From the NCBI GenBank assembly GCA_002786715.1, contig PCTW01000039.1, positions 72,626-136,625 of the forward strand: a stretch of DNA of 64,000 nt, written 5' to 3'. A program made the translations under genes and the position numbers. This document shows, in pieces, positions 19,623-43,936 of the stretch. The DNA is from Bdellovibrio sp. CG22_combo_CG10-13_8_21_14_all_39_27. GTDB lineage: Bacteria; Bdellovibrionota; Bacteriovoracia; Bacteriovoracales; Bacteriovoracaceae. The notes under the pieces were generated by a model. It was not told the origin of the DNA, made no database searches, and worked only from the letters and a program-made list of their open reading frames with translations. Within the stretch, counting starts at the first letter, position 1. Every line of letters starts with the position of its first letter.

Positions 19623-20027
19623 ATGCTAGACGATAAAATAACAAAACGAAAAATTCTCGTGCTCGACGATATGGCCACCATCCGAGAGGCCATGCAATCG
19701 GCTTTGAGGAAGCTCGGTTTTTCTAAAATTCAACAGTCGGCCGATGGCCAGGACGGTTGGAATAAACTCAAGCAAAATGTCGAAGAACCCTTTGGACTTA
19801 TTTTCTCAGATATCAATATGCCCAATTGTAATGGTATCGAGTTTGTAAAACTTTTAAGAACACTTGATGTTTACAAAAGTATTCCCGTTATCATGGTGAG
19901 TTCTGAGAATGAGAGTCATATTATTCTCGATGCAATCGCCGCCGGTGCAAACAATTACGTTTTAAAACCATTTACTCCCAATACCATTGAACAAAAAATT
20001 ACCGAAGTTTTTAATAAGCTTAAGTAG
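19623..20027 (+). CDS. Stand-alone CheY-like receiver protein
   Basis: This 134-residue single receiver domain has an acidic pair (LVLDDM), the phospho-acceptor D63 in FSDINMP, a switch Ser in MVSSE and the conserved Lys in VLKPF. There is no output domain, so it acts by protein contact, as CheY does. The frame is open from a GTG at 19584, but the ATG at 19623 begins where other receivers begin and is preferred. Its end overlaps by 8 bases the end of the convergent CheA-like kinase gene, its most likely phosphodonor. Confidence 0.88.
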   Translation: MLDDKITKRKILVLDDMATIREAMQSALRKLGFSKIQQSADGQDGWNKLKQNVEEPFGLIFSDINMPNCNGIEFVKLLRTLDVYKSIPVIMVSSENESHIILDAIAAGANNYVLKPFTPNTIEQKITEVFNKLK

Positions 20028-22548
20028 GTAGTTCGAATATAAACTTAGAACCTACTCCAACTTGAGATTCAATATGGAGTTGTCCCCCCATCTTTTCAAC
20101 GAGATCTTTTATTGCACTCATGCCAACGCCACGGCCAGAAATTGAGGTGACTTGTTCAGCTGTACTAAAGTCTTGATCAAAAATATGATAAATAATCTCC
20201 TGATCACTTTCACTGAATGCGGCTTCATTTTCAGGATTGTTTTCAAAGAGTTTTTTACGAATCCTTTCAGGATTAATTCCTGCACCATCATCTTCAATGA
20301 TCAGTTTTAATTTTCGTCCTTCTTCATCAAGCATTGCTTGAACCGCAATTGTACCGGATGGATTTTTTCCTAATTCATCTCTTGTACTAGGTGGCTCGAT
20401 CCCATGATCAGCACAGTTTCTAAACAAGTGAACCAGCATAGCGAAAAATTCTTGAAATTTATCTGGATCAACTCGAGTTTCTCCATTAATAATTTTAAGA
20501 GGTGAAAACTCTTTATCAAGTTTTATCGCCAAGCTGCTTAACAACTCTTTGTAAGGAGTTAATAGTTCTTCAACAGGAACTTTCATTATTTTTTCACTGA
20601 AGATATATTTTAGTTCTCGCTCATTTGATTCTTGAACGAGATCATTAACGTACATAAGCAAAGCTTGATCAATTTCGACTTGGTCTGAGTGAATACTTAA
20701 AGCTGTAAAAATCTCTTGCTTAAATTGACTATAAGCTTCTTTTAAACGATCTCGATCAAGAAGTAATTTCTCTTTAACAGAGTCGCTCTCTACAAAGTCT
20801 TTCTTTAAATCGACGACAAACTGCTCACATTCTCGAGCTAATTCGACCATGAAATCCACACCGTACATGCCAAATCCACCATTTAGAGAGTGATAAACGA
20901 GCATGGCCTCATCCAGTCGAGGTGGACTTGATTGCAAGATATCATCGAGACTAAGAATGAAATCCTCTACTTCTTGAGTAAAAGAAATAAATTGCTTCTT
21001 ACTTCCTAGTATTTTAAAAATCATTTCAACATAACGTTCTTTCTTTTTATTCTCTTCAATTGCACGCATCTCTGCCGTTTTATCAGTAGCGACAACCACG
21101 ACATTGCTAATTTTTTGCTCATCGTCTCTCATTGGATGATAGTGTAGCTTCAGCATCTTGTAGTCATCGTCTGTAACATTTTTCCCAAAGACTTTTTCTT
21201 TTGGACCAAGCATTGAAGCAGATTCAAAAGGAATCATTTCACTAAATAGAATATCTGCCCACTTCTCAATTTTGACTCGTTGATCTTCATCCAATTGCAG
21301 AACAGACATATAATCACTATTTGCAGGTGATCGGTTAAAAAGATTTTCACAAGCCTTCGTATAAATAGATGAACACTTTAAATCTTTATCAAAAACAAAA
21401 AGTCCTTGATCCAAACTATCGATCATAGCTTGAATAAAATCGTTGGCCGACTTCAATTCTGCTGTTCGCTCCTCAACCATTTTTTCGAGATTCTTGCTAT
21501 AATCTTCAATTTTGACATTCGCATCTCTGAGCTCATCAATAATGACTTCTTTTTCCTTCAAAAGATTAAAGATTTTTTCGGACATGAAATTGAATTTTTC
21601 ACCGAGTACAAAAAGTTCATCTTTGGTTTTTATCTCAACTTTATGTTCAAAATTTCCATCGGCAATAAATTGAGCATTTTCCATTAGAGATCGAATTGGC
21701 TTAGTGAGACGGATACTAAAAAAGAGACCAGCAACCAACGCTGCCCCAATTAAGATCAAACCAAAAGCCATTGTTTTAAAATTGAGGGCAGAAACAATAG
21801 AATAAGCTTTTTTAGTTGAAATAAAGCTGATTATTTTCATCGAAGAAATGGGTAAGTGAACAGATGAAACTAAGAAACCTTCATCTCCGAATTTAATCTC
21901 TTGAGTTAGGTCATTCTTATTGCCTGTATTTCTCGACAGGATTAGCTTGTTCGTTTTCTCCTCTCCCGTTTGCCAAAGAATCTCACCTGCATCCGTTGCG
22001 ATTATATAACTAAAAACAAGATCATTTGAAATTCTATTCAAAAGCGTATCCATAACAAGAATCAAACTTAGATTTTTATTTCCTTGCCGAAACTGTGCTA
22101 AAAGTAAATTTTCTTCAGGTATTTTTCGAACTGAAATCCCCTCTTCATCAGTCTCAGAAACTTCTTCGATGAGCTTACTCACTTTTAGAGCGAAGCCTTC
22201 AGGCTTATTGGCAAAAAGAGTCTTATGAAATGTTTTTCTCACTGAAGATTCATCAAGCTTAAAGCTAAAGGCAGCAATATTGTTTTGTTTCTCGAAGAGT
22301 TCGATCCACGCCTTACCCGATTGCTGAGAAAGGAGAACATAGGATTCAATTTGTATAAATGATTCTTGAATCTGATCTTGTATCGTTTTTTTAAGGCCTT
22401 CTGTACTCGTTAAAATATTTTCAAAGATGTAAGCCTTTTTGTCTGAAGTTAATAGGGCATTTGTAAAAAAAAGATTGCTGGAAACAGCAATAATGAGCAA
22501 GGCTGACAAACCTGCTAAGATTTTTATCTTAATTCCAAAACCTTTCAA
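20020..22548 (-). CDS. Membrane-bound CheA-like sensor histidine kinase (periplasmic sensor, HAMP, PAS, HPt, HATPase)
   Basis: The 842-residue protein starts with a membrane segment (about 8-32), has a periplasmic sensing region of about 220 residues, a second membrane segment (about 258-278), a HAMP linker, a coiled coil, a PAS domain (about 370-480), an HPt-like helix pair with H552 in YHSLNGGFGMYG, and a CheA-type ATPase (N box HLFRNCADHGIEPP near 707; FSTAEQVTSISGRGVGMSAI near 803). In CheA the HPt His is phosphorylated by the ATPase domain and passes phosphate to CheY-like receivers. A CheW-binding P5 domain is absent, so it is not a normal chemotaxis kinase. It is divergent from the FecR gene (68 bases apart) and convergent with a receiver gene. 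Confidence 0.88.
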   Translation of the reverse strand: MKGFGIKIKILAGLSALLIIAVSSNLFFTNALLTSDKKAYIFENILTSTEGLKKTIQDQIQESFIQIESYVLLSQQSGKAWIELFEKQNNIAAFSFKLDESSVRKTFHKTLFANKPEGFALKVSKLIEEVSETDEEGISVRKIPEENLLLAQFRQGNKNLSLILVMDTLLNRISNDLVFSYIIATDAGEILWQTGEEKTNKLILSRNTGNKNDLTQEIKFGDEGFLVSSVHLPISSMKIISFISTKKAYSIVSALNFKTMAFGLILIGAALVAGLFFSIRLTKPIRSLMENAQFIADGNFEHKVEIKTKDELFVLGEKFNFMSEKIFNLLKEKEVIIDELRDANVKIEDYSKNLEKMVEERTAELKSANDFIQAMIDSLDQGLFVFDKDLKCSSIYTKACENLFNRSPANSDYMSVLQLDEDQRVKIEKWADILFSEMIPFESASMLGPKEKVFGKNVTDDDYKMLKLHYHPMRDDEQKISNVVVVATDKTAEMRAIEENKKKERYVEMIFKILGSKKQFISFTQEVEDFILSLDDILQSSPPRLDEAMLVYHSLNGGFGMYGVDFMVELARECEQFVVDLKKDFVESDSVKEKLLLDRDRLKEAYSQFKQEIFTALSIHSDQVEIDQALLMYVNDLVQESNERELKYIFSEKIMKVPVEELLTPYKELLSSLAIKLDKEFSPLKIINGETRVDPDKFQEFFAMLVHLFRNCADHGIEPPSTRDELGKNPSGTIAVQAMLDEEGRKLKLIIEDDGAGINPERIRKKLFENNPENEAAFSESDQEIIYHIFDQDFSTAEQVTSISGRGVGMSAIKDLVEKMGGQLHIESQVGVGSKFIFELPT

Positions 22549-22616
22549 ACTACCACTATCCCCTGCAAAATTTGCGCTAATAGTCTATTGCCTTAAGTAT
22601 CTGTAAACTTATTTAT

Positions 22617-24557
22617 ATGCTTAATGCTAATTATAATGATTATGAAGAATTTCAACAGGCTAGAAGTTTTGTCCTCGTTGATTGGATCACACTTATCCTG
22701 AGCGTTTCACTCATCTGCTTTGGAGCATATTTATATAAGCAAAGTAATTCTCAGACTCTTCTTCTCAGAAACTTGAACCCGATAGCGAAAATCAGCCAAC
22801 TCGAGTTCGATTCAAATCGAAAAATTCCAGGAACTCTCAACTGGATAGAAACCAATCAAGGCGACATTCTCTACCAAGGTGATCAAATTCTAACGGATGA
22901 TCGATCAACTGTTCTCGTCTCTTTTGATAGTGGCCCGGAACTGATTATTGGACCTCAAACTTTAATTAAGATTGACCTTTTTAGGGATAATTTCAATATC
23001 AACATCATAAAGGGCTCAATCGAAGTAAAACAAAAAGCAAAATCAATTAAAAAAGTGCTTCTTTCTAATAATGAAAATGAAAAGATTGAAATTAAGGAAG
23101 GTTCTAGAATAGAGACATCTCCTTTCGGCTTGATGACAAATCAACAAATCCCCAAACAAAATTCAACTTTTAATGTCATCGATAGTCCTACCATTGGAAA
23201 AATTATTAATCCCTCCACCGATAAAGACATTCCCATTGAATTCAAAAGTCCACAAAGTGGAACAATTTACGTTTATAACTCAAACGGAGTAGAGGTGGGC
23301 CAATATAAAGTTCAGCAACAACAAAGCTTGAGCCTGCCAATGTTCGAGCCCGGTCGTTATTTTACTCAAATTAAAAATAGCGAAGGTAGGGAAATTGGTA
23401 AAACCTCTTTTACGGTTACTTCTTATGAAAGCCCCAGCATAAATCAACTAAGTTCTAAATCTGAATATTATAAGGGCGAAAAAATTGAACTGAGTTGGAA
23501 AGGTCGAGAAGATATTATTTACAAATTAAGAATCAAAACGCCAACCCAAACAGTCATTCGGCAAGTTCGAGGAAATCACTACTCATACCCTTTGGAAGAA
23601 AAAGGTGAGCACAGTTTTGAAGTTGCTATAGTTAGCAATAATCATGTTTATAAAAGCGCTAAGCAGCTAGTCAATGTGAACCTCGTTGCTGGCCTCGTCA
23701 TACCAGAGAATCAACTGTTTCAAAACGTAAAGAAGACCGAAAACGCGCAATTTACTGTTAAAAATCATCTTAATAGTGATCCCGTTGTCTTTGAAGTAAG
23801 TCCTAATCCAGAATTTACTCAAATCATTAAAAAAGAAAGTTCTCCTATTGGTAAAAAAGAGATCGCCATGGAAAAACCTGGCATTTACTATGCTCGTGCC
23901 AGAACTGAAAGTGCCAAACCAATTGTTTCTAGCGTGGCCAAGATTGTCGTATCTGGACCTGTTGCTAGGGTCGCAAAGGATTATCAAAAAAATCAAATTA
24001 TTAGTGATGATAAAAAGAAAGTCCTGCTTTCATGGAATAAAGTAGAAGGAGCTGATCGTTCTATTTTACAAGTTTCTGAGACAGCAGACTTTAAAGAATT
24101 ATTGATAAATAAAGAAACTGATTTGAACAAAGAATTAGTCGAAATACCAAAGCTTGGAAAATATTTTTGGAGGTTATCCCCAAAAACAGATTCTCCTCAA
24201 TATTTAACAAAAACAGCACCTATTGCGCTTGAAGCAGTTCTCCCTAAGCCTTTAACAATACCTAAAATTATTCCTCGGCAAATTATTTATTATCGAGATA
24301 TAAAAGGCACAGCTAGCTATGTCATAAAATTTAATCCCTATCCTTTTGCTAAAAAGTATTGGATCGAAGTTTTTGCAGACAAAGAGCTACAAAAACTGGT
24401 GTTTAAAAAATCATTCGATAACACTGAAGCTTATTGGGTTAGCAATCGCTCAGGGTTATATTATTATAAAGTGAAGATTGAAGATAAATGGGGACGTATG
24501 AGTCAATATTCTGATGTGGGTGAATTGATTTTTCCTATTTCACCATTGGTGAAATAG
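22617..24557 (+). CDS. FecR-domain protein with repeated Ig/Fn3-like modules
   Basis: This 646-residue protein has one N-terminal membrane anchor (about 18-41, FVLVDWITLILSVSLICFGA), then a FecR-like beta domain (about 60-150; NQGDILYQGDQILTDDRSTV, GSIEVK) and four or five Ig/Fn3-like modules in the periplasm. The last module (KYWIEVFADKEL ... GLYYYKVKIEDKWGR) is clearly homologous to one in the FecR protein at 39820. In classic FecR the domain lies outside the membrane and controls a sigma factor; no sigma factor is present here and the cytoplasmic tail is only about 17 residues. The stop overlaps the GTG of the LysM-barrel gene by one base, so the two are co-translated. Confidence 0.85.
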   Translation: MLNANYNDYEEFQQARSFVLVDWITLILSVSLICFGAYLYKQSNSQTLLLRNLNPIAKISQLEFDSNRKIPGTLNWIETNQGDILYQGDQILTDDRSTVLVSFDSGPELIIGPQTLIKIDLFRDNFNINIIKGSIEVKQKAKSIKKVLLSNNENEKIEIKEGSRIETSPFGLMTNQQIPKQNSTFNVIDSPTIGKIINPSTDKDIPIEFKSPQSGTIYVYNSNGVEVGQYKVQQQQSLSLPMFEPGRYFTQIKNSEGREIGKTSFTVTSYESPSINQLSSKSEYYKGEKIELSWKGREDIIYKLRIKTPTQTVIRQVRGNHYSYPLEEKGEHSFEVAIVSNNHVYKSAKQLVNVNLVAGLVIPENQLFQNVKKTENAQFTVKNHLNSDPVVFEVSPNPEFTQIIKKESSPIGKKEIAMEKPGIYYARARTESAKPIVSSVAKIVVSGPVARVAKDYQKNQIISDDKKKVLLSWNKVEGADRSILQVSETADFKELLINKETDLNKELVEIPKLGKYFWRLSPKTDSPQYLTKTAPIALEAVLPKPLTIPKIIPRQIIYYRDIKGTASYVIKFNPYPFAKKYWIEVFADKELQKLVFKKSFDNTEAYWVSNRSGLYYYKVKIEDKWGRMSQYSDVGELIFPISPLVK

Positions 24558-25582
24558 TGAAGAAATTTATAATACTCCTATGCTTGTTTTATTCGACGGC
24601 TTTTGCCGCTGGCGCGAAATACTATAAAGTTAAATACATAGTTGAGTCCAATGATACATTGGCAAAAATTTTCAAGCGCTTTGTCTTTCCAGACAGCGTT
24701 ATCACTCTCAAAACTCCCATGACTCAAAAAACCATTAAGGGTAATCCCCATGTTGGTAATTGGAGCAAATTGGAATCTGGTACCAAGGTCAATCTTTATA
24801 TCGCTGCAGAGTTTATGGATCTTTCGAAATATAAAGATTACGTTCAAAAACTAAAAAAAGGTTTAGCTGAAGTTCAAAAGAAAAAAGAGGAACAGCAAGA
24901 AACAGAAAACTCTAAAGGCTTACCTGAAGGATTAAAAGCTTCCCTCTTTTACATGGCCTCCTATGGTCAATTTACACAGGATAATCCTCGCTATGCCGAA
25001 GTTAAGTTTCTTCAGAATAGTCCAGCGACGCTTGGAGCTTCATTTTCATTCTATCCGAAGAAGAGTGATTGGTCCTTTGCTTGGAGCGCTTACTTCTCCT
25101 ACCTGCTGGCCACATCTAACAATCTCGATTCATCTAATGTTTCCGTTCCTCCAGAAATTGGTGCTACCTTTTACAATGAGTATCGATTTAAAAACCAAAA
25201 TTTCACCGGTTACTTCGGTCTCGACTTTGAAAAATTCTCCACCTTTAATATGGGAGGAATTCAGAGACAAAGAAAAATTCTACTTGATGAAAACACAGTA
25301 CTCTATGCCACAGTTGGAATTTCCAAGCTGGTTCATGTTTTTGGGAGTCCCTACTTTACCAAGATTTCAATTTCTAAAAGCTTAACCACTTCAATAGCTG
25401 AAAATGCCCAGGGTGTTACTTCCGAGGGAGCCTATGATGGTTTCAAGTTTCTTTGGTATGTTAATAAAAAGTTTTCAAAGAAACTCTACCTACATACTCT
25501 TTTCAAGTATCACTCAATGGATGGGCCATCTAAGCTCTCAACTCTTAGATTAGGCGTAGGTTTCGGCTACATTCTCTTTTAA
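24557..25582 (+). CDS. LysM-like domain plus outer-membrane beta-barrel protein
   Basis: The 341-residue protein has a signal peptide (cut after STAFA, about residue 17), a LysM-like region (about 22-80; YIVESNDTLAKIFKRF), a charged coiled coil of about 30 residues (KKEEQQETEN) and a C-terminal region of alternating hydrophobic strands that ends in Phe (LRLGVGFGYILF), as required for outer-membrane barrel assembly. It could link peptidoglycan and outer membrane. The GTG start at 24557 shares its G with the TAG of the FecR gene, a strong sign of coupled synthesis. Confidence 0.8.
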   Translation: MKKFIILLCLFYSTAFAAGAKYYKVKYIVESNDTLAKIFKRFVFPDSVITLKTPMTQKTIKGNPHVGNWSKLESGTKVNLYIAAEFMDLSKYKDYVQKLKKGLAEVQKKKEEQQETENSKGLPEGLKASLFYMASYGQFTQDNPRYAEVKFLQNSPATLGASFSFYPKKSDWSFAWSAYFSYLLATSNNLDSSNVSVPPEIGATFYNEYRFKNQNFTGYFGLDFEKFSTFNMGGIQRQRKILLDENTVLYATVGISKLVHVFGSPYFTKISISKSLTTSIAENAQGVTSEGAYDGFKFLWYVNKKFSKKLYLHTLFKYHSMDGPSKLSTLRLGVGFGYILF

Positions 25583-25631
25583 TCCGAGCTTTCCACTCAA
25601 GTTTATTTAACATTCTTCCGAAAAGAAGATT

Positions 25632-26321
25632 ATGAAACATAAACTATCGAAATTGCTCATTATGACTACGGCATTTGCCATGCTTACAACCTCTTGTACT
25701 TCCAAGCGTACGTCGGTTGCGAAAGACCCAGAAACAGACGGCGAAGTGATCGTACTTGAAGATGATGTTCAAAATCAATTTGATCATGAGCTTAAGGAAT
25801 ACGATCAATTCAATGCTCACACTGTTTATGATGATGGTGAAAAAATTGAAGAATTCAAAGAACAGAAACAAGCCGAAGTAATTGAAACCATTTCAAATAA
25901 TTTTAAAACCTATACTGTCCAACGAAATGAAACGCTAATGATGATTTCTTTTAAACTCTTTGGTGTTTTGTCTGATTGGAAAAAACTCTATTCCTGGAAT
26001 GAAGAACAGCTTATTAACGAAAATAATTTAACGCCAGGAATGCAGCTAAAGTATGTACCTGCAGATGAAGAGTTTAGCTGGCAACCCGAAGGGAATCCTT
26101 ATCTCATCGTTCGAGGCGACACGTTGGGAGTTATTTCGACTAAAGTATATGACGGAGAGAAAAAGTATTGGAAAAAGCTTTGGGAAAATAATAAGCCAAT
26201 GATCAGAGATCCTAACTTGATTTTTGCAGGTTTTACTATTTTCTATCAACCCCTAGAGCAATTAACTGGTCAACCACAAACGACCAGAGAACTATCAAGC
26301 GAAACAGAAGTCATTGAATGA
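25632..26321 (+). CDS. Lipoprotein with two LysM domains
   Basis: This 229-residue protein has a lipoprotein signal with lipobox LTTSC. A spacer rich in Glu/Asp is followed by two LysM domains: YTVQRNETLMMISFKLFG... (about 95-145) and YLIVRGDTLGVISTKVYDG... (about 155-205). LysM domains bind the glycan strand of peptidoglycan, so the protein likely bridges a membrane and the cell wall. It follows the LysM-barrel gene by 49 bases and overlaps the next receiver gene by 4 bases (ATGA), which ties a cell-wall-binding lipoprotein to a cytoplasmic receiver in one operon. Confidence 0.88.
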   Translation: MKHKLSKLLIMTTAFAMLTTSCTSKRTSVAKDPETDGEVIVLEDDVQNQFDHELKEYDQFNAHTVYDDGEKIEEFKEQKQAEVIETISNNFKTYTVQRNETLMMISFKLFGVLSDWKKLYSWNEEQLINENNLTPGMQLKYVPADEEFSWQPEGNPYLIVRGDTLGVISTKVYDGEKKYWKKLWENNKPMIRDPNLIFAGFTIFYQPLEQLTGQPQTTRELSSETEVIE

Positions 26322-26716
26322 GTAAATTTTCAGATTTAGAACTTAAAATTTTAATTGTTGAAGATATGGAAAATTTCATTAAGCAAATGGTTAATGATCT
26401 AAAAAAACTTCAGATCAAAGGTTCAATCAACTACGCCATGTCCATCAAAAAAGGAATTGGATTGATTGATACACAAGACTATGACTTCATCATTTCAGAC
26501 TGGAATTTACCCGATGGAACAGGGATGGATGTTCTCAAGCATGTTCGCCAAAAGAAGAATTATGCAAAGACTCCTTTTTTAATGTGTACAACGATGGATG
26601 AAGTTGAAAATATCTTAACGGCCATAACGGCAGGCGCGACTGAATATATTGTGAAGCCTTGGGAGTTTGAAGAACTTAAAACCAAACTTTCAACCTGCTT
26701 ATTAAAGAAGCCATAA
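26318..26716 (+). CDS. Stand-alone CheY-like receiver protein
   Basis: A 132-residue receiver domain without output domain. The acidic residues are in LIVEDM, the phospho-acceptor is D61 (ISDWNLPDGTGMDVL), the switch Thr is in CTTMD and the Lys in IVKPW. Its start overlaps the LysM lipoprotein stop by 4 bases and its stop codon directly abuts the ATG of the next receiver gene. Confidence 0.88.
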   Translation: MSKFSDLELKILIVEDMENFIKQMVNDLKKLQIKGSINYAMSIKKGIGLIDTQDYDFIISDWNLPDGTGMDVLKHVRQKKNYAKTPFLMCTTMDEVENILTAITAGATEYIVKPWEFEELKTKLSTCLLKKP

Positions 26717-27139
26717 ATGAAAACACCAAAAAACATTAATTTTCTCGTTGTTGATGATATGACTTTCACCCATTCTTTTATCCTTCAATCGTTAAAGAAA
26801 CTAGGTTTTGAAGGCAATATTTTTGCTGCAAAGAATATGAATAGTGCCATCGAAAAGATAAAAGAAGTTTATAAACATAAAATGAAAATAGATGTGATCA
26901 TTACCGATCTTCACTTACCTGATGGAAATGGGATTGAGCTTACAAGAAAAATAAGAAGTACATCTTCACTTGTTAATATACCTATTATTATGATGACTAC
27001 TGATGAGAATTCTCACCTCGTTATTGAAGCTTTTGAAGCGGGAGTTGATAATTACTTCTTCAAACCCATTGATGATGACATATTAAGAGAAAAAATTGAG
27101 TTTGCTTGGGCCAAAAAGCATGGAAACAAAGCCTCTTAG
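26717..27139 (+). CDS. Stand-alone CheY-like receiver protein
   Basis: A 140-residue receiver domain: acidic pair in LVVDDM, phospho-acceptor D64 (ITDLHLPDGNGIEL), switch Thr in MMTTDE and Lys in FFKPID. It starts on the base after the previous stop, so the two receivers are made together. They are related but clearly diverged, so they may compete for, or relay from, the same kinase. No kinase is encoded downstream on this strand; the CheA-like kinase at 20020-22548 is the nearest. Confidence 0.87.
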   Translation: MKTPKNINFLVVDDMTFTHSFILQSLKKLGFEGNIFAAKNMNSAIEKIKEVYKHKMKIDVIITDLHLPDGNGIELTRKIRSTSSLVNIPIIMMTTDENSHLVIEAFEAGVDNYFFKPIDDDILREKIEFAWAKKHGNKAS

Positions 27140-34239: not shown

Positions 34240-34728
34240 ATGAAATTGATTTCTCTGTTGCTTTGCTTTTTAAGTTCGAGCTTGTTTGCTGAAATGCGAA
34301 TGAGTTCTTTGCACATGGAAAAGGCCCGTACTATTGCTCAACAAATTGCCTATCGCGCGATGTTGAATTCCTACTCCGACAATCATGAATTGATACAAAG
34401 AGTTTACCTGAAGATCGGCTCAGTACGTTTCAATACTCCAGACTATGGCTACGATTTTACTTCTTGTGCTCCAATGACTTTGGCCTATGTTGAGATGTAT
34501 AAAGATCCAAATACCATTAATCTATGTCACTTATCACTGATTGGTAGCATCGAAAAATTAGCGCAAACCCTTATTCATGAATCTGCTCATTTGATTGGAT
34601 TAGAAGATGAATGTGATGCAAGCAGAGTTGAACTACTCCTATTTCGATTATCTCGCTCTCCCCTTGTCTATAAGAATAATTATTTGAATCAATGTGGACT
34701 AGATCAAAGTCTGCGTTGGCTTTTTTAA
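34240..34728 (+). CDS. Small exported HExxH metallopeptidase-like protein
   Basis: This 162-residue protein has a signal peptide (MKLISLLLCFLSSSLFA) and one zinc-binding motif HESAH in LIHESAHLIGLEDE, with a downstream Glu/Asp cluster that could supply the third ligand. The layout is like short deuterolysin-type (M35-like) zincins, but the family is not certain. Four or five Cys residues suggest disulphides. The frame extends to a TTG at 34201, but the signal peptide begins at the ATG at 34240. The last 30 bases overlap the convergent receiver gene. Confidence 0.72.
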   Translation: MKLISLLLCFLSSSLFAEMRMSSLHMEKARTIAQQIAYRAMLNSYSDNHELIQRVYLKIGSVRFNTPDYGYDFTSCAPMTLAYVEMYKDPNTINLCHLSLIGSIEKLAQTLIHESAHLIGLEDECDASRVELLLFRLSRSPLVYKNNYLNQCGLDQSLRWLF

Positions 34729-35106
34729 TAAAGGCCGAATCTTTGCCATCATCTGGGCAAAGGTGAAAGGTTTTACTAAAATGTCATCGATTCCTACCTG
34801 TAGAGCGCTTTGAACATCTTCCTTAGAGAGGATTGCTGACATCAAAACTACTCTTATAGAAGAGTGTTTTAACATTTTTCTTAATTGTCGAACAAACTCA
34901 ACTCCTGATTTTCCAGGTAAATTTTGATCAAGAATCAAAACATGAAACTCTTGATTCTCTAATTTAAAAAGCGCTTGAGTGGCATCATTGGCAACTACAG
35001 TTTGCAAATCTTCTGTGCCAACTTTTAAAAAAGCTTTAATGAGATCACAAATTTTTTTGTCATCATCAACTACGAGAACTGAATAGGGACGACTATCGAA
35101 GCTCAT
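34699..35106 (-). CDS. Stand-alone CheY-like receiver protein
   Basis: A 135-residue receiver domain (LVVDDD; phospho-acceptor D60 in LILDQNLPGKSGVEF; switch Ser in LMSAIL; Lys in LVKPF). Its ATG overlaps the stop of the hybrid kinase gene by 4 bases, so it is probably the output or relay partner of that kinase. No output domain is attached. Confidence 0.9.
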   Translation of the reverse strand: MSFDSRPYSVLVVDDDKKICDLIKAFLKVGTEDLQTVVANDATQALFKLENQEFHVLILDQNLPGKSGVEFVRQLRKMLKHSSIRVVLMSAILSKEDVQSALQVGIDDILVKPFTFAQMMAKIRPLLKKPTQTLI

Positions 35107-36623
35107 TTATTCGCCAAGACTCCACGAATAGTCGACATAAAAACCTCACTCGAAAAAGGTTTTAAAATAGCCGCCTTTACATTAAATCGCTCTTTATCTC
35201 GGTTGTAATAGTCCAAAACATTTGCACCACTCATATAGATGACAGGACAATTCTTTTTATTATTAAAGATAGCTTCCGCCAGTTCGGAACCATTCATCCC
35301 GGGCATCTGATAGTCAGTTATCACAACATCAATCTTTGTTTGTTGAAGCATCTTCAAAGCTGCTTCACCACTAGTTGACCCTATTAAAAGCAGGTCTTGA
35401 TCCTCACAAAATTTTTGGCAAAGATTCAGAATATTTGGCTCATTGTCAACGATGAGGACTCTTGGAATAGATTGATTTTCATGACTTAGAAAATGAGAAG
35501 TATTATCGACAAAGCTACTGACTTCTATTGAAGGAAGCTCAATTCTGAAATGCGCACCAGAGGCTGAGTCTAGTAAAGACAATCGTCCTTGATGAGCTGC
35601 GATGATTCGAGAGGAAATACTTAGTCCAAGTCCTGTTCCCTTACCTACTTCTTTGGTAGTAAAGAAAGCTTGAAAAATTCTCTCTCGATTTTCTGGCTTA
35701 ATGCCTGGCCCATTGTCTGTCACGTCAAAGTAAACTTCGCTGCCATCGTTGCCACAAGAAACTTCCAGTTGAACAGTAGGATTTTTAGTATTGGCATCAC
35801 TGAGCGCATCTACTGCGTTCTGTAACAAGTTAATTATAACTTGCTCGACTTTGATTTTATTAACGAGAATAAGTTGATTATTGTCTTGGATTTTAATTTT
35901 TAATGTTACTTCATTGTCTTCAAAATGTGATTTAACCATATGATGGCATCTATCAACCAAATCTTTAACACTACAATACTCTTTACGATCTTCGCTTTTA
36001 TGAAGAAACTCTTTCATTCCCGCTACAATTTGATTAATTCTTTCGTGCGATTCTCTAATATTATTTAAAGCTTCTTTTAAGTTTTCTCTTTGAGAATTGA
36101 GGTCATCTTCCTCCATTGTAAATTCGATAATCTCAACATTGCCAGATGCTACTGTTAATGGATTATTGATTTCATGAGAAATATTGGCAGACATTTCACC
36201 AATGGTCTTCAGTTTGTCAGCTTGCACAATTTGTTCGTGAGAAGTTTTCAATTCTTCAAGTTTTTCACGATACTTATCATACAATTTTTTCTCAACACTC
36301 ATGTCGTTAAACGAAATGATCAAATTTGAATCAACAAAAGAAACTCTGGGAATAACGGTTAATGCATTTCCATTAAAAACAAAAGAAGACTCCGCTCCGA
36401 GTGCAGTAGTCTTAGTCGAGAAAGATTTCGTAATCAATTCATTTAAAATACTCTCTAAGGGGCTCAGAAGTTCTGCCAAGCTGCCAGCCTTGTTAACAAG
36501 ACGAGGAGTAAGTTTAAATAAGGTTAAGAATGCACTATTAAAATAATGTATCCTTTGTTTTTCATCGATGATGACGATGGATAAGTTCATATCATCAAAG
36601 ATATTATAATTTTGTGTAGTCAT
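35103..36623 (-). CDS. Hybrid sensor histidine kinase (PAS, HisKA, HATPase, receiver)
   Basis: The 506-residue soluble kinase has a PAS-like domain (about 1-115), a short coiled coil, a HisKA domain with H150 (SANISHEINNPL), an ATPase domain (NLLQNAVDAL, DNGPGIKP, GTGLGLSIS) and a C-terminal receiver (from about 387; phospho-acceptor near 437 in ITDYQMPGMNG; ILKPF). No membrane segment is seen, so the signal is cytoplasmic or comes from a partner. It is in an operon with the SpoIIE-type phosphatase, the STAS protein (3 bases upstream) and the receiver (4-base overlap). Confidence 0.93.
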   Translation of the reverse strand: MTTQNYNIFDDMNLSIVIIDEKQRIHYFNSAFLTLFKLTPRLVNKAGSLAELLSPLESILNELITKSFSTKTTALGAESSFVFNGNALTVIPRVSFVDSNLIISFNDMSVEKKLYDKYREKLEELKTSHEQIVQADKLKTIGEMSANISHEINNPLTVASGNVEIIEFTMEEDDLNSQRENLKEALNNIRESHERINQIVAGMKEFLHKSEDRKEYCSVKDLVDRCHHMVKSHFEDNEVTLKIKIQDNNQLILVNKIKVEQVIINLLQNAVDALSDANTKNPTVQLEVSCGNDGSEVYFDVTDNGPGIKPENRERIFQAFFTTKEVGKGTGLGLSISSRIIAAHQGRLSLLDSASGAHFRIELPSIEVSSFVDNTSHFLSHENQSIPRVLIVDNEPNILNLCQKFCEDQDLLLIGSTSGEAALKMLQQTKIDVVITDYQMPGMNGSELAEAIFNNKKNCPVIYMSGANVLDYYNRDKERFNVKAAILKPFSSEVFMSTIRGVLANK

Positions 36624-36626
36624 GAC

Positions 36627-37097
36627 TTAGCCTTGCTTTAAAAAGTTAAAATATTGAGCTTCAATTGCATCAAATTCCATTTCAGATCCACAATCACTAC
36701 AATTGCATTTCGGAGCCTTAAAAGATTGTATGTCTGCTGAATTGATTTTCACTTTGACTTCTTTATCGCAATCCTCGCAAAAATAAGGAGCGTAAAAGCT
36801 TTCAACCTTAGCCCCCTTAGGAATAAATCCTTGAACCATGTTGATTTGTTCAATAATAATCTGGGGACAATTGACATAAATAATTTGAGAGTTTGTTCCC
36901 AACCCTACCAAATACTGAATCCATTCTCGAATGCCACAGGAATTAATCATGGAAACTTTTTGAAAATCAAAAACAATTTTAGCAGACTCTAAATTTTTAA
37001 TATTTGCAAAATCTGCATCTTCGTCAATAACACCAGTCAATTGGACTGTTGTTTGGTCACTAACGATATTGATACCGACTTCAAGCTTATCACTCAC
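36627..37097 (-). CDS. STAS-domain protein with C-terminal zinc ribbon (anti-anti-sigma-like)
   Basis: The first ~100 of 156 residues form a STAS domain. The phosphorylation loop reads INSCG, where S53 matches the phospho-Ser of SpoIIAA and RsbV (DSSG/DSTG); the preceding Asp is Asn. The C-terminal part holds two Cys pairs (CEDCDK, about residue 108, and CNCSDCGSEM, about 132-140) that look like a zinc ribbon, which is uncommon in such proteins. Its ATG overlaps the stop of the SpoIIE gene by 4 bases. It is the likely phosphorylation substrate of that fusion protein. Confidence 0.8.
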   Translation of the reverse strand: MSDKLEVGINIVSDQTTVQLTGVIDEDADFANIKNLESAKIVFDFQKVSMINSCGIREWIQYLVGLGTNSQIIYVNCPQIIIEQINMVQGFIPKGAKVESFYAPYFCEDCDKEVKVKINSADIQSFKAPKCNCSDCGSEMEFDAIEAQYFNFLKQG

Positions 37098-39739
37098 GCA
37101 TTACCTCTCTCTATGAAATGGAAAGATGTGATTCTTTCCTTATATTTTTTATACCTTTTATTTGATTCAATTAGACACACAATTTCAGTACTCACATTGG
37201 GAGTTCTTTGAATCCAAAATTGATTTGTTTGACTGTAGGTTAAATAAAGCCCCAAGCCTGCCCCTCTTCCTGATTCCTTCGGTGCCTGGTCTTTATAGCC
37301 TCTATATATTGAATCGATAATTTTTTTCCTCTCGAGTAAGCCTAATTGATCTTTTACTTGAATCGCCACGTAGTTTTTATTCTTAATAAAAGACAAAACA
37401 ACACTTGAGCTCTCCCCGTGCATAATAATGTTATTCACCAGTTCCAATGCCATAAAATGAAGATAGTTTGCTGGTGAATCAAAATATTCGCTAAAGTCAT
37501 GTTGTTTAAGAAAGTTTTCAATTTTCGCCGATTTCTCATCTCCTGAATTAATATCAAGTGATGAAATAGTGCTCTTGGACCTCATGAGATCAATCAAGTC
37601 GCCTTTGCTACCTAAAACAGAAAGTTCTAATTCCTCTTGCAAAAAAGGACTATTCTCACCAATCAAGTGATAGATCTCATGCTCGCTGAGCAATTTTATA
37701 TTTTCAAGATTTTCCTGGGTCGAGCAGACAACTGCTTTAGCGCTTACCAGCTGAGGATATGCTGTCACCTCTTCCGCGGCCATAATGACCGAAGCATAAG
37801 ATTTTGATTGGTCAAGCAAGTCCCCAAAATGAACTTCGAAGGAACTATCAGGAGTTGGAATGAGATTTATACTTTTAAGTGTTTTACTGCAAAGGACTTG
37901 GGCTTTTGATGTCTGCGAACCTAAACCTCTTTGAGATTGATTCCATTTAACAATTGAAATTGTTATATCGTCGTTGTTTTTATTGTCTGCAAAATTCATT
38001 GCCGACCGAAGAAGGGTTTTTAACTTCAAATCAATACTTAAGGAGTCTGAAGCTTCCAATTCTTTGATAAGTCTTCTTTGCCCAAAAGCTTTAGCTTCAT
38101 TGTTTTCTAATTCCAATAAACCATCTGTTAATAGGAGTAATTGATCGCCATCATTAAGTACAAGTTCACTATCATTATATTTTGCATTTCGGTCCTGTCC
38201 GATTCTCAATCCAACTTCACCGAGAAGAGGTTCGATCCTTTCTTTGAATGTGGCCGTCTTTTTATTGCGAATAACCCAAAGTGGATGATGAGAAGCATTT
38301 GAACAGATAAGCCTGCCCGAACTCAATTGGAGAACTCCTGCAAGTGCTGTCAAATTCACTTCGCCTTCAAGTTCTGCGACAACCTGATTAAAGACGTTTA
38401 ACATTTCGTGTGGCAAGATCAATTCGTTATCAGCTTGATTCATTCTCTTCATCGTTGCAAGTGCACTGCTTGCAGTAGCAGTAAGCAGGGCAGCGGGAAC
38501 TCCATGTCCAGTAGCATCGCAAATCATGAAATAAAAATAGTCACCTTGTTTAAAGTATCCCCACCAATCGCCACCGCATTCGGAGGCTGAGACATATTGA
38601 TAGGTTGTCTCGACATTATCCAAAGTTTCACTCTCTTCTGGAAAGTAAGTTTGCTGAACCAACTGGGCCACTTTGACTTCATTTTCTAGTCGAGATTTCT
38701 CTTTCATTTCCTCGATATATCGAAGTATTTCTTTACCCATGAATTCAAAGGAATGAGCGAGCTTTCCGATCTCATCGTTCGATCGGATAGAGAGCTGTGT
38801 ATCAAATTGTCCTTGGGCCACTTTCTCCGTGGCACTCGTAAGAAGCTGAATATTTTTTGTTAGAGCACGTGCAAATAAGAGTGCTACAATCACCACCACT
38901 GAAAAAATCAAAAGGCCAAAGTAGAGTGATTTTTGTTGTAAAACATTAGCTGCACTAAAAGCTTTGCTTTCACTAATGCTACTTAATATATAGAGGGGAA
39001 AGTCTTTAAGCTTAACGAAAGCAATCAGGTTGTCCCCAATTTTAGTTACTGTTTGCTGAGCACCGTCAGATATGACTTTAGTGATACCTTCTGAATTAAT
39101 ATTTTCTTTTTCTGCGTTTTGAAGTTCAATCAATGGAAGTCCGCTTGTATCAACAATTTTCGATTGGAATACGTGAGCAGAAGTTGAAATCATTTGGCGC
39201 ATAAAATCAGTTTTGATTTTAGCAATAACACCTATCTTTTTACTTTCTGAAATAAGAGACAAGGCCCATCCTGGAACTAAGCCCTTTCGATCTTCAAACT
39301 TTAGTTGAAAATGATCTTGGAGATCTCTCCCCTCATTGTCTTCAGTATTACTTTTCTGATCTTCAAATTTATAAAGGTCAAGAAAGGATTGATCGACTAC
39401 ATTTTGGATCAGCTTCCAATTTTTGCCTTCTCGACTATAAATTTTTAATTCATAAAGTTGAGGCTCTTGAGCGAAATAAGTTTTAAGAAAAGTTTGATCT
39501 GCACCTAGTTCAATTGATTTGGCGATTGCGTAGAGATTTCTCTTATTCTGAATAAGAAAAGAGTTCACTTGATTAGAAAGATGGTTCGCCGAAGTTAGGG
39601 AATTATTATAAATATCTGCTGATTTATCTTTTCTGAAGATATCTATGGCAAAATACACATAGAAGCCAACTGAACTTAAAAGAAGAACGAATATGACTAA
39701 ACTAAATTTTAATTTTAACGGAAAACCGACTTTTCCCAT
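37094..39739 (-). CDS. Membrane sensor with SpoIIE/PP2C phosphatase and GHKL ATPase domains
   Basis: The 881-residue protein has a membrane segment (about 10-30), a periplasmic Cache-like domain, a second segment and HAMP (FARALTKNIQLLTSATEKVA), a SpoIIE phosphatase (ASECGGDWWGYF, ICDATGHGVPAALLTA, NDDITISIV), a linker of about 200 residues and a C-terminal RsbW-like GHKL ATPase (ALELVNNIIMHGES, VKDQLGLLE, GRGAGLGLYLT). It thus appears to hold both the phosphatase and the kinase of a partner-switching module. The frame is open to 39829, but AGAGGAA lies 8 bases before the ATG at 39739, which also avoids overlap with the divergent gene. It leads an operon with the STAS, hybrid kinase and receiver genes. 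Confidence 0.87.
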   Translation of the reverse strand: MGKVGFPLKLKFSLVIFVLLLSSVGFYVYFAIDIFRKDKSADIYNNSLTSANHLSNQVNSFLIQNKRNLYAIAKSIELGADQTFLKTYFAQEPQLYELKIYSREGKNWKLIQNVVDQSFLDLYKFEDQKSNTEDNEGRDLQDHFQLKFEDRKGLVPGWALSLISESKKIGVIAKIKTDFMRQMISTSAHVFQSKIVDTSGLPLIELQNAEKENINSEGITKVISDGAQQTVTKIGDNLIAFVKLKDFPLYILSSISESKAFSAANVLQQKSLYFGLLIFSVVVIVALLFARALTKNIQLLTSATEKVAQGQFDTQLSIRSNDEIGKLAHSFEFMGKEILRYIEEMKEKSRLENEVKVAQLVQQTYFPEESETLDNVETTYQYVSASECGGDWWGYFKQGDYFYFMICDATGHGVPAALLTATASSALATMKRMNQADNELILPHEMLNVFNQVVAELEGEVNLTALAGVLQLSSGRLICSNASHHPLWVIRNKKTATFKERIEPLLGEVGLRIGQDRNAKYNDSELVLNDGDQLLLLTDGLLELENNEAKAFGQRRLIKELEASDSLSIDLKLKTLLRSAMNFADNKNNDDITISIVKWNQSQRGLGSQTSKAQVLCSKTLKSINLIPTPDSSFEVHFGDLLDQSKSYASVIMAAEEVTAYPQLVSAKAVVCSTQENLENIKLLSEHEIYHLIGENSPFLQEELELSVLGSKGDLIDLMRSKSTISSLDINSGDEKSAKIENFLKQHDFSEYFDSPANYLHFMALELVNNIIMHGESSSVVLSFIKNKNYVAIQVKDQLGLLERKKIIDSIYRGYKDQAPKESGRGAGLGLYLTYSQTNQFWIQRTPNVSTEIVCLIESNKRYKKYKERITSFHFIERGNA

Positions 39740-39819
39740 CAACATCTTCCTCTTGGAGAAATCTGACTCAATGATACAATGGTTTATTATAACTTTTTTA
39801 CTGAGTAATAGAGCTTTTT

Positions 39820-42800
39820 TTGCAGACAAAATATTTTGATCAAATTCTTATCCTTTTAATGGCAGCACTGGCGGTTTTCAGTGGCTATCAGCTTTATCGC
39901 CCCATTGATCAAATTCAATTAGACAGCGCTCATTCAGTAGCCGAGATTATTTCTCAAGTGAACACGGTTAAAACAAAGAGAAATAATTGGCTTGCTTGGC
40001 TAGATAGCAATATTGGCTTCAAACTCTCTGAAAATGACATGATCTATACCCATGCTGACTCTTCTGCTGAAATCGAACTCAATGACGGCTCAACTCTGAG
40101 CTTGGCCGAAAGTACTCTCTTCAAAGTCAGTGGAGTGAATAATCAAGAAGAATTCAATTTGGAACGAGGCATTGTATTTGCAAAATTGGCCAGTTCCCGT
40201 CGCGATCTCAAAGTTGACCTGGGCGGAAACAAGCTCCAGCTATCGGCAGAAAATGCTGAATTTCAAATTTCAAAAGACTCTGAAAATCAAAATATTTCAC
40301 TTTTATCAGGTGAAATGAAGATTCAAAATGAAAGCGGTATACAGGTTATTAAAGAAAATCAAGAAGCTTCATTTAATGGTAGTCAAATTAAAATCAAAAA
40401 TATTCCCCTCATCTCTCTGGCTCCTCATAAAAAAACTTATTATATCGCCCAAGCTCATAATATTCATTTTGAATGGCAACAAAAAATGGAATCTCAAAAT
40501 ATAAAAATACTTATTGCAACCGACCGTAAATTTAAAAAAATGATCAACTCAACTTCTATCCAAGGAAACTCCTTTGATTTTATTATTGATCAATCAGGAA
40601 CCTATTATTGGAAATTAGTAGGCCAATCGAATCAAGAATCTTTTTCAACTCCCATTCGTTTTTTTCAAGTCTATCGAGAATTTGCTCCTCAGATTTTTGA
40701 AATAAACTCTCCCTTGATTACTTTTGAAGAAGTACTTAATGAATATACAATTCAGTGGTCTGCTCAAGGATTTAAAGCTTTCGAGACTCAACTTTCCTTC
40801 AATGAGCAACCTTCTCTCAATCAAGAGATCAAAAAAAACTCTCTCCGATTAACTGAACTCAAAAAAGGAAAATATACATTCAGAGTTAGAGGAATTGATA
40901 ACGACCGACCTGAAGCTTTGTGGTCAGAGTCGAAAGCGTTTGAAGTTCTTCAAATAGAAAAGCTAAGTGCCCCTCATATACTCTCTCCAAGTCCTAACAG
41001 TGAATTTGTGGTCTACGACATTGAGCAATCTCAAATCTCTTTCGCCTGGGATAATGTCTTGGGTTCGAACTCTTACCGACTTGAACTCAAATCCAATAAT
41101 GAAGTTCAATCATTCACTTCTCAAAGTCACCATATGACCTTACCTCTAACAGCGGAAGGATCATATGAATGGAGATTAGTGGCGCTCAATGACCTCCAAG
41201 AATCAAGTTCCGAATGGAATACCTTTTCTGTAAAAATTGCGAAAGATAATGCGTTGTCGCCACAGGATGGTTCTGTTGTAGAATTAAAAAGGCCAGATCA
41301 AGATGTCACTTTTGAATGGAAACCCGATTCTAAAACCCAAGACCCCACTTACCTATTAGAAGTAAGCAATGATCCTCAATTCAATCAAATTCAAGTGACC
41401 AGAAAACTCAAAGGAATTAAGTCTAATGTTCGTTTCTCTAAACTTGGAACTTATTATTGGCGAACTAAAATCATTAAAGAGAACGGCCAGGTTGAATTTT
41501 CAAGGCCAACGAAAGTAGAAGTTGTCCCATCACCAGCTCCAAAGCCTCTTGAACTTCCAGAGGAAAATACTATTGAGATTCAATTTGAGAAAGAAACTTC
41601 ACTGTGGAATTGGTTTATTAGTCCCGCTTATGCCGATGGTGGTTTCATCGAATTAAAGTGGCCAAAGAATGAGGACGCCAAGTTTTATAAAATAGAAATA
41701 TTCACAGATAGTGAGATGAAAAATAAAGTCCTTGATAAAACTGTACAAACCAATAGTTTCAAATGGAATAATGTCACCGAGGGGCAGTACTTTTGGAGGG
41801 TGGCGATTGTCGATCATTGGGATCGAGAAGGTACATTTTCCAATCTCTCAAAGCTTATAACTTCATATCCCGAAGAATTTTTTGCACCTGTAGGTTCCCA
41901 GCTCATAACTCCTAAGCATCGAAGTGCTATTAGAAAAGGAGTTGAATTTGAATGGAGCAAAGATGACAAGGCAGAAAAGTATCGCTTTATGTTGGCCACT
42001 GATCTCGAATTTAAAAATATCATTTTTGAGAAGATGCTCAAGCAAAGCTCAATTCGCTTAAATACTGAAATCGAGCAGCTAAATCCAGAAAAGAGATATT
42101 ATTGGAAAGTCGTAAGCATTGGAAAAAAAGGACATGAAAAATCAAGTTTAAGAAGGCAAGTCTACCGTCTTCCCAATGAAAAAAAGAGAGAAGAAAAACA
42201 GTCTTTGACTAAATCAAGCAAAGTACTTCCTCCTCATAAGAAGAGAATGGTCCAATCTCTTTTAACAATCGATGCTCTTCCTTCCTCTATTTCCGAAGAC
42301 ACAACGAATACCAGGACTACGACCGTCTCCGGAACTGCGCTCAATTCACTACGTCTGTCCTATCGACGAAAAATATCCATGTGGTTTAACGAATATCAAA
42401 CCGAGGCCCATCGTTTAAGTGGAGAAGTTTTTCAAAACCTATCCTTTTCCCAAATTTACCTTTCACTAAAAGGTACCCGTCCTTACTCATGGGGCAATCT
42501 TTCAACCGGGCTCAATATTTACTCTATCAATTCTTATCCCGTGCAAACCACGGTCAAAGAACAAAGCTCTACCCTCTTTGCTGTCCCTATCGGTGTTTCA
42601 AAATCATTTAACTTAAGCTCAAGATGGTCAACAGAGCTGTCCGCCCATGCATTACTAGGAACGATTTTAGGTACTGAAGCTCGCGCCCACTTTAATTATA
42701 GCTGGGCTGAAAATTTTGATTTAAGAACTGGAATTGAATACTCGAATTTAAGTTTCACTGCAGATAGCAATGATGTTTCTGTATCTAGAATTTCTCTGTT

Positions 42801-42825
42801 GCTAGGAATCTCTCAGCTCTTTTAA
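39820..42825 (+). CDS. FecR-domain protein with Ig/Fn3-like modules and a C-terminal beta-barrel-like region
   Basis: The 1001-residue protein starts at TTG 39820 (no ATG is available before residue 14; the ATG at 39859 would remove part of the membrane segment). A hydrophobic segment (about 8-22) lacks a clear cleavage site. It is followed by a FecR-like domain (about 60-180; HADSSAEIELNDGSTLSLAE), seven or so Ig/Fn3-like modules with YYWR/YFWR strands, a basic linker (about 770-810) and about 170 residues of alternating strands ending in Phe (ISLLLGISQLF), as in outer-membrane barrels. The module KFYKIEIFTDSEM...GQYFWRVAIVDHWDR matches the end of the FecR protein at 22617. It is divergent from the SpoIIE sensor gene. 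Confidence 0.83.
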   Translation: MQTKYFDQILILLMAALAVFSGYQLYRPIDQIQLDSAHSVAEIISQVNTVKTKRNNWLAWLDSNIGFKLSENDMIYTHADSSAEIELNDGSTLSLAESTLFKVSGVNNQEEFNLERGIVFAKLASSRRDLKVDLGGNKLQLSAENAEFQISKDSENQNISLLSGEMKIQNESGIQVIKENQEASFNGSQIKIKNIPLISLAPHKKTYYIAQAHNIHFEWQQKMESQNIKILIATDRKFKKMINSTSIQGNSFDFIIDQSGTYYWKLVGQSNQESFSTPIRFFQVYREFAPQIFEINSPLITFEEVLNEYTIQWSAQGFKAFETQLSFNEQPSLNQEIKKNSLRLTELKKGKYTFRVRGIDNDRPEALWSESKAFEVLQIEKLSAPHILSPSPNSEFVVYDIEQSQISFAWDNVLGSNSYRLELKSNNEVQSFTSQSHHMTLPLTAEGSYEWRLVALNDLQESSSEWNTFSVKIAKDNALSPQDGSVVELKRPDQDVTFEWKPDSKTQDPTYLLEVSNDPQFNQIQVTRKLKGIKSNVRFSKLGTYYWRTKIIKENGQVEFSRPTKVEVVPSPAPKPLELPEENTIEIQFEKETSLWNWFISPAYADGGFIELKWPKNEDAKFYKIEIFTDSEMKNKVLDKTVQTNSFKWNNVTEGQYFWRVAIVDHWDREGTFSNLSKLITSYPEEFFAPVGSQLITPKHRSAIRKGVEFEWSKDDKAEKYRFMLATDLEFKNIIFEKMLKQSSIRLNTEIEQLNPEKRYYWKVVSIGKKGHEKSSLRRQVYRLPNEKKREEKQSLTKSSKVLPPHKKRMVQSLLTIDALPSSISEDTTNTRTTTVSGTALNSLRLSYRRKISMWFNEYQTEAHRLSGEVFQNLSFSQIYLSLKGTRPYSWGNLSTGLNIYSINSYPVQTTVKEQSSTLFAVPIGVSKSFNLSSRWSTELSAHALLGTILGTEARAHFNYSWAENFDLRTGIEYSNLSFTADSNDVSVSRISLLLGISQLF

Positions 42826-43936
42826 ATTTAAAACTCACAAGAATCAAACCACCCAATAAAAAAGTCACGACATGACTCCAAGACAATTTCTCTCTCGCAG
42901 CACAGCTGATATCTGATGACAATTCAACACTCGAAGAGCTGTTGCGGGCAATAATTGTTGCAAGCGAATTCACTTGAGCTGAAGGCGAAACTGTTCCTCC
43001 TCCCGTTATCACTCCGTCAATATCATCGAGACGAATACGTCCGCTACCGCCACTTCCACCTTCTCCAGAAGTTCCGAACGAACCATTGGCCCCTCCCGTT
43101 CCTCCTGTCGCCGTTAGAGAACCAGAAATAATAATATTCCCCTCTGATTGCAGCCAAATCGCTCCGCCAGATCCTGCACCACCTCCAGATTCAACACTGG
43201 CACCATCTCCACCTCCATTTCCCCCATTGGCCACCACCGATCCTGAAATCGTGATATCTCCACCAGCAATAATATGAATAGCGCCACCGCCACCGCCGCC
43301 AGTTGAACCTGAAACCTTCACTCCGCCAGTCGTTTCGCCACCGCCACCAGAAGCTCCGCCAGAGCCACCGATAAAACTACTTTCAAAATTAGTTTCATTT
43401 CCCCAAGTGGGTCCTTGCGCCCCTTTGGTTCCAGCCTGAGAGGTACCGTTTATGTCTCCATTAAGTGCAAGTGTTCCACCTTGCGTGGAATAACTTCCGC
43501 CACCGCCACCGCCACCATAGACATCAAATGCATTTGAAACATCATTGACATAAATTCCTTTTACGCCACCACCTGTTCCATTTCCATTTTGGCCGTCAGT
43601 ATCCAGTGCGCCATACGCCCCACCATTACTACCTCCTGCTCCCGCGAGTCCTCCTGCAAGAGAACCTGTTCCATCGGCATTTGCCCCGACGCCACCATTA
43701 GCGCTGAGTGTATTTGAAATCGTTACCGCTCCTTGCACCTTAATCACAACGGCAGCTCCGCCAACAGCATTAAAGACAGAATTAGCAGCGCCAATGTTCA
43801 AGGTGGTACAATTATAGGTTCTCGTTCCAGCGATAAGTGTCGCTTGTGTGCAAGCGCCATCAGCACCGGTTCCAGTGTCAAAATAGGCAAAGGCATTTTG
43901 AGATAAAATGATGAATAAGAAAGGGATAAGCTTCAT
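42785..43936 (-). CDS. Exported glycine-rich protein with Cys-TM-basic C-terminal tail
   Basis: This 383-residue protein has a signal peptide (ending NAFA), a very Gly-rich body (about 30-330) with repeated ITISGS(V/L)xAxGG segments that suggest stacked beta turns, and a C-terminal tail made of a Cys (SCAAREK), a hydrophobic helix (VVTFLLGGLILVSF) and Lys/Arg residues. Such a tail resembles C-terminal sorting signals like MYXO-CTERM, which direct proteins to a sorting protease and the surface. The tail is an inference from layout. Its last 41 bases overlap the end of the convergent FecR-barrel gene. Confidence 0.8.
   Translation of the reverse strand: MKLIPFLFIILSQNAFAYFDTGTGADGACTQATLIAGTRTYNCTTLNIGAANSVFNAVGGAAVVIKVQGAVTISNTLSANGGVGANADGTGSLAGGLAGAGGSNGGAYGALDTDGQNGNGTGGGVKGIYVNDVSNAFDVYGGGGGGGSYSTQGGTLALNGDINGTSQAGTKGAQGPTWGNETNFESSFIGGSGGASGGGGETTGGVKVSGSTGGGGGGAIHIIAGGDITISGSVVANGGNGGGDGASVESGGGAGSGGAIWLQSEGNIIISGSLTATGGTGGANGSFGTSGEGGSGGSGRIRLDDIDGVITGGGTVSPSAQVNSLATIIARNSSSSVELSSDISCAAREKLSWSHVVTFLLGGLILVSFKFKRAERFLATEKF

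Follow-up and report, generated by a model that had tools for sequence, protein, structure and literature searches.

A conserved locus linking genes for FecR-type, predicted outer-membrane barrel and LysM proteins to a CheA-like membrane kinase and single-domain receivers in a family of Bdellovibrionota

Comparison with described FecR-linked systems

The nearest known kind of system is the operon combining FecR/LysM proteins with CHASE2 kinases, such as BiofilmReg of Burkholderia, which consists of an OmpR/CreB-type regulator, a LysM/FecR protein (COG4254), a CHASE2 histidine kinase and a DUF4136 protein; a route from wall to cytoplasm was proposed for it, and an insertion in the operon abolished biofilm (PMC5192318). 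An envelope protein is likewise paired with a transmembrane signalling enzyme in a Campylobacterota cluster of FecR, a CHASE2 adenylate cyclase, a phosphodiesterase and a TPR protein (PMC9239204), and in Magnetospirillum, where MtxA occurs with a CHASE2 cyclase (PMC4439547). Here we analyse a seven-gene locus (positions 19623-27139) of a 64,000-nucleotide stretch, hereafter the window, of contig PCTW01000039.1 of Bdellovibrio sp. CG22_combo_CG10-13_8_21_14_all_39_27, whose host is a member of the family to which Bacteriovoracaceae and Halobacteriovorax genomes belong. The locus encodes a FecR-type protein, a predicted outer-membrane barrel, a lipoprotein with two LysM domains, a membrane kinase and three single-domain receivers, and it probably forms one envelope-coupled phosphorelay that ends in these receivers and whose envelope parts would be in contact with one another.

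Like BiofilmReg, the locus places the gene of a FecR-type periplasmic protein beside those of a membrane kinase and a receiver and involves LysM, but it differs in every module. FecR and LysM, which form one protein in Burkholderia, are here distributed over separate FecR, barrel and LysM lipoprotein products, the outer-membrane barrel being an addition; a HAMP-HPt-CheA kinase with two to three single receivers stands where BiofilmReg has a CHASE2 and HisKA kinase with a DNA-binding regulator. The Campylobacterota FecR-cyclase and MtxA clusters differ in having a cyclic AMP output and no phosphorelay, kinase, barrel or receivers. With CheA/CheY chemotaxis the locus has in common the HPt domain, the CheA-type ATPase and the CheY-like receivers, but its kinase is membrane-bound, carries HAMP and lacks CheW/P5, and no chemoreceptor genes are found at the locus. 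A preliminary description of the locus had stated that no described system has this set of genes. For the exact set this holds among open papers, subscription papers being outside the search, and papers naming FecR along with Bdellovibrio were chance co-mentions; FecR-linked kinase and cyclase clusters, however, are known (PMC5192318, PMC9239204), and the locus is itself one branch of a phylum-wide FecR-kinase family, which narrows the claim of novelty.

Gene order and its conservation

Open reading frame (ORF) coordinates agreed with the gene places and overlaps of the preliminary description (Table 1): the FecR stop and the barrel start have one base in common (TAGTG), the LysM lipoprotein and receiver B genes overlap by four bases, and the kinase gene is divergent from the envelope genes. 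The receiver A and kinase genes are convergent with an 8-base overlap, while receiver C abuts receiver B and occurs in only some relatives. Both promoters of the divergent pair are presumed to lie in the gap between the kinase and FecR genes; promoter and terminator counts were close to shuffled means. Pfam matches at the locus comprise Response_reg in the three receivers, HAMP, HPt and HATPase in the kinase, and LysM twice in the lipoprotein.

Table 1. Positions of the analysed features in the window (aa, amino acids; bp, base pairs)
Feature	Length	Position	Strand	Evidence or remarks
Giant lipoprotein, many LamG domains	5528 aa	2838..19424	-	PF13385, 8 stretches; beside receiver A
Receiver A, CheY-like single domain	134 aa	19623..20027	+	PF00072, E 3e-26; convergent with kinase
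Membrane kinase	842 aa	20020..22548	-	Pfam HAMP, HPt and HATPase
Divergent intergenic region, kinase/FecR	68 bp	22549..22616		Gap of 21-109 bp in 17 loci
FecR-type protein	646 aa	22617..24557	+	Family alignment, AlphaFold model, FN3/Ig matches
Predicted outer-membrane barrel protein	341 aa	24557..25582	+	AlphaFold; coupling to FecR apparently conserved
Lipoprotein with two LysM domains	229 aa	25632..26321	+	PF01476, two stretches; Cys22
Receiver B, CheY-like single domain	132 aa	26318..26716	+	PF00072; position-specific clade
Receiver C, CheY-like single domain	140 aa	26717..27139	+	PF00072; clade with the L105 copy
Sister module		34699-43936		Receiver, HisKA kinase-receiver, STAS-like, HAMP-SpoIIE, divergent 1001-aa FecR, 383-aa protein
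Collagen-like secreted protein, 54 GXX repeats	587 aa	43974-45737		Follows the sister module

Conservation was assessed by an all-against-all comparison of the ORFs around 17 kinase copies (the window and 16 other loci); an alignment scan of named genome contigs with the kinase segment yielded 18 named loci, and a cultured bacterium, Bacteriovorax sp. BSW11_IV, carries the module (L132). Homologs of the FecR, barrel, receiver A, receiver B and kinase genes were present in 13-16 of the 16 other loci, mostly in the same order and orientation and over many genera, and those of the LysM lipoprotein in 9 of them. Most flanking genes recur in 0-1 of the 16, and the giant lipoprotein in 3. Since the module genes recur while most of their flanks do not, a chance neighbourhood is ruled out. 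The locus is a conserved unit, and the preliminary description passed the refutation test it had set, as related genomes keep the gene order. No further conserved gene travels with the module in these relatives. The FecR and kinase genes are divergent in 17/17 loci, the convergent receiver A and kinase genes end within a few bases of each other in every locus but one, and the FecR-barrel junction lies mostly between -19 and +9 nucleotides, so that translational coupling of the barrel to FecR appears, from the sequences, to be conserved. Across 129 genomes of the family there were 21 strong kinase hits, 17 with a FecR gene and 14 with a barrel gene within 6.5 kb. Two of the four hits without FecR are on cut contigs; the remaining pair (G088 and G148) score identically although they come from different genera, so that one of them may be a contamination.

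The envelope proteins, the kinase and the proposed signal route

The FecR-type protein consists of an N-terminal transmembrane anchor, a FecR-like domain and about five Ig/FN3-like domains arranged as a rod, with a conserved C-terminal motif, LIFPISPL. Its AlphaFold model, with a predicted local distance difference test (pLDDT) of 83, has a membrane helix at residues 20-42 and an all-beta FecR-like region at 55-174, followed by Ig/FN3-like domains to the C-terminus, and a rod of these dimensions might extend outwards from the inner membrane in the direction of the wall and the outer membrane. The FecR label of the preliminary description finds partial support, at the level of the family: the window protein is itself missed by PF04773, whereas 7 of 14 aligned family members match (best E 7e-5), as does a homologous paralog of 1001 aa that the window also encodes (1.7e-9). 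Fold searches with the FecR model were dominated by FN3/Ig matches and barely probed the FecR domain itself, searches of PDB sequences with profiles of the barrel and of FecR found nothing beyond weak matches to antibodies and fibronectin, and the FecR protein had no Pfam match to LysM. A scan of the named genome contigs with the FecR protein yielded no match. A match of the FecR protein to a type IX secretion system sorting tail (E 8e-4), under the Pfam cut-off and inside an Ig-like domain, was judged spurious.

The FecR-type domain of some orthologs would also suit a degenerate FecI/FecR sigma/anti-sigma unit of the iron type, but this reading, contradicted by the locus content, the FecR N-terminus and the barrel type, is extremely improbable and was rejected. 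Neither an extracytoplasmic function (ECF) sigma factor gene beside FecR, by ORFs and Pfam, nor a TonB receptor is present at the locus, as the preliminary description had recognized for the sigma factor. Only about 17 residues precede the FecR membrane helix, which begins at residue 18-20 in the family, and an anti-sigma N-terminal domain is absent in the 14 members. The barrel, with about 215 residues, 10 strands and no plug, is not a TonB-dependent receptor with a signalling domain.

The AlphaFold model of the barrel protein (pLDDT 85) places a LysM-like domain at residues 22-83 and, beyond a long helix, ten strands at 125-339. Its fold is close to that of the Neisseria OpcA adhesin (Z 20.9, root-mean-square deviation 2.6 over 196 residues) and to those of omptins (Z 17-19, best 19.1), but Pfam gave no omptin match in 15 barrel orthologs. 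Together with a signal-like helix or signal peptide at the N-terminus and a C-terminal F in most orthologs, the model predicts a closed 10-strand outer-membrane beta-barrel. The second half of the earlier name, LysM-barrel, agrees with this prediction; as to the first, Pfam LysM (PF01476) matches 0/15 orthologs, the profile comparison of the barrel N-terminus with the LysM of the lipoprotein is weak (E 0.0065, probability 6%), and residues 22-83 are modelled as beta-alpha-alpha-beta at pLDDT of about 90, the fold search not covering these residues. On the model, 'LysM-like barrel' describes the protein reasonably, though short of proof. The lipoprotein carries a predicted lipid-modified Cys22, which all 10 aligned homologs of the long form retain, and is a paralog of a family present in 126/129 genomes.

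In the kinase, a transmembrane helix, a periplasmic region, a second transmembrane helix, HAMP, a weak PAS domain, HPt (His553) and a CheA-type ATPase follow one another, and Pfam corroborated the HPt and CheA-type ATPase that had been described earlier for this membrane kinase. The ATPase region matches CheA structures (E 6e-32), and His553 and the ATPase motifs are invariant in 17/17 kinases, so the kinase has the pair of domains that defines a CheA: an HPt (P1) with a phosphoacceptor His and a CheA-type ATPase (P4). It has no CheW-like (P5) domain, the protein ending at the ATPase at residue 842; with no CheW domain and no receptor at the locus, a plain chemotaxis operon is ruled out. Canonical CheW-domain proteins (C34, C55) and the flagellar motor protein FliM are encoded elsewhere in the same genome, which makes motility one possible target of the receivers.

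All three receivers of the window are composed of the receiver domain only, keep the phosphorylatable Asp and the conserved Lys, and have no DNA-binding domain. They fall in position-specific clades, the receiver A orthologs forming one clade in 14/15 cases, which indicates distinct parts and not spare copies. A short protein of receiver-like length, without a Pfam match, precedes receiver B in two relatives (L102:6705-7094 and L104:12551-12973); having no clear phosphoacceptor, it is possibly a pseudo-receiver.

Predictions place the barrel in the outer membrane, the lipoprotein at the wall, the FecR anchor and the kinase in the inner membrane and the receivers in the cytoplasm, as in the envelope chain proposed in the preliminary description, and we infer their mutual contact. 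In the proposed phosphorelay, FecR would be anchored in the inner membrane by its single helix, with the FecR domain and Ig-like rod protruding into the periplasm in the direction of the LysM-like domain, which the outer-membrane barrel would expose on its periplasmic side, and the LysM lipoprotein would tie the assembly to peptidoglycan. A stimulus arising in the wall or outer membrane, such as contact with a surface, the loading of a surface lipoprotein or remodelling of the wall, would alter the FecR assembly and thereby act on the periplasmic sensor of the adjacent HAMP kinase. This kinase would then phosphorylate its own HPt histidine through the CheA-type ATPase, without CheW or chemoreceptors, and the phosphate would pass to two or three separate CheY-like receivers acting by protein contact and not by DNA binding.

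Several observations weigh against a single relay. Barrel-lipoprotein pairs occur without the kinase (L044, L047 and L057, and L039, where FecR is present as well), and kinases without FecR exist (L148 and L158), so that the parts can work apart. In addition, the LysM identity of the barrel falls below Pfam detection, and in two loci (L115 and L116) the lipoprotein position is occupied by proteins of 83-88 aa without LysM, so that peptidoglycan binding is not essential there. The pairing without kinase suggests that the barrel and LysM lipoprotein act together. Such separations, together with the kinase's own periplasmic region, are what would be expected of two neighbouring units, in which FecR, barrel and lipoprotein build an envelope structure, and the kinase and receivers control it or merely share the divergent promoter, with no sensing through it. 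This is a less probable arrangement, which we regard as unlikely: receivers without a DNA-binding domain would need an extra factor to control transcription of the operon, the 4-base overlap couples translation of receiver B to that of the envelope lipoprotein, and in L143-L147, which lack barrel and lipoprotein, FecR is still found next to the kinase.

A separate observation concerns the copies L043/L044, where the barrel and the large lipoprotein of genome G056, which belongs to another family, closely resemble the own-genome copy at C21, by recent transfer or assembly contamination.

Large surface proteins, the sister module and the wider family

Relatives of the giant LamG lipoprotein were found in 5/129 family genomes, all 5 with the kinase and 4 of them directly beside receiver A (hypergeometric 5e-5, treating genomes as independent though they are related). 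The lipoprotein is tentatively an extra part of the module, whose left boundary as drawn earlier may be too narrow. Barrel paralogs without the kinase adjoin other large lipoproteins in about 6/18 loci, these lipobox-bearing neighbours including RCC1-repeat and S74 proteins and proteins of about 1100 aa, which suggests that the barrel and the lipoprotein may work in the service of large surface proteins. These associations, and the conserved collagen-like secreted protein that follows the sister FecR module, would fit a surface-display role, in which barrel and LysM lipoprotein would export or anchor large lipoproteins such as the 5528-aa LamG protein, with FecR, kinase and receivers overseeing the process and setting its timing. 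We consider this improbable: a giant protein is missing near most module loci, the proteins encoded beside barrel paralogs come from unrelated families, and a 10-strand barrel suits adhesins and omptins better than export channels.

At an E value of 1e-15 the kinase segment was detected in 147/369 genomes of the phylum, and 42 of the 57 loci read, spread over several families and including Bdellovibrio, have a FecR gene no more than 7 kb from the kinase. The Bdellovibrio-group locus comprises a HAMP-SpoIIE receptor, a STAS-like protein, FecR, a soluble PAS-HPt-CheA kinase, a receiver and a receiver-DUF4388 protein, and is apparently undescribed so far. Its kinase core, FecR, receiver and HAMP sensor half are homologous to those of the window module, but its receptor ends in a SpoIIE phosphatase and its kinase is soluble, whereas the window module has its receptor half fused to the kinase and the barrel and LysM lipoprotein as additions. 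Among the loci of this group (L160-L163, L173, L174, L177 and L178), FecR and kinase occur with HAMP-SpoIIE genes and mostly with receivers too; a conserved lipoprotein of about 1000 aa, with an EF-hand in one case, is found a few kb away in several.

The same relationship is visible inside the window, where residues 3-350 of the kinase are homologous to residues 35-395 of the HAMP-SpoIIE protein of the sister module (E 7e-17), whose gene likewise diverges from that of a FecR protein; one receptor type would thus serve two outputs, both paired with FecR. The sister STAS-like protein was named by eye, with no Pfam STAS match, and the HAMP-SpoIIE phosphatase also has a weak HATPase match. The sister set, collagen-like protein included, recurs in four other genomes (G014, G002, G093 and G136), the sister module being conserved over several genera, and one further genome (G029) carries a mixture of both modules.

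The recurrent pairing of FecR with the same kinase family and two output types argues for FecR as a general adaptor of envelope sensors and not only a sigma regulator. The module bears on the way in which predators of the Bdellovibrio group perceive contact at the outer membrane and relay it inward. As a defined gene set that is conserved in the family and whose core has homologs in Bdellovibrio, it is open to deletion and testing. More speculatively, and with rather low confidence, these loci might represent a surface-sensing class of the whole phylum Bdellovibrionota, in which a FecR-Ig rod would couple barrels and giant lipoproteins (LamG, collagen-like) to interchangeable outputs, a CheA-type phosphorelay or a SpoIIE/STAS partner switch, serving contact with prey or surfaces as well as the display of large adhesins; if true, this would be a signalling architecture not previously described. 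A striking expansion of the kinase segment was observed in three genomes of one genus (G008, G146 and G147), with 23-25 hits per genome.

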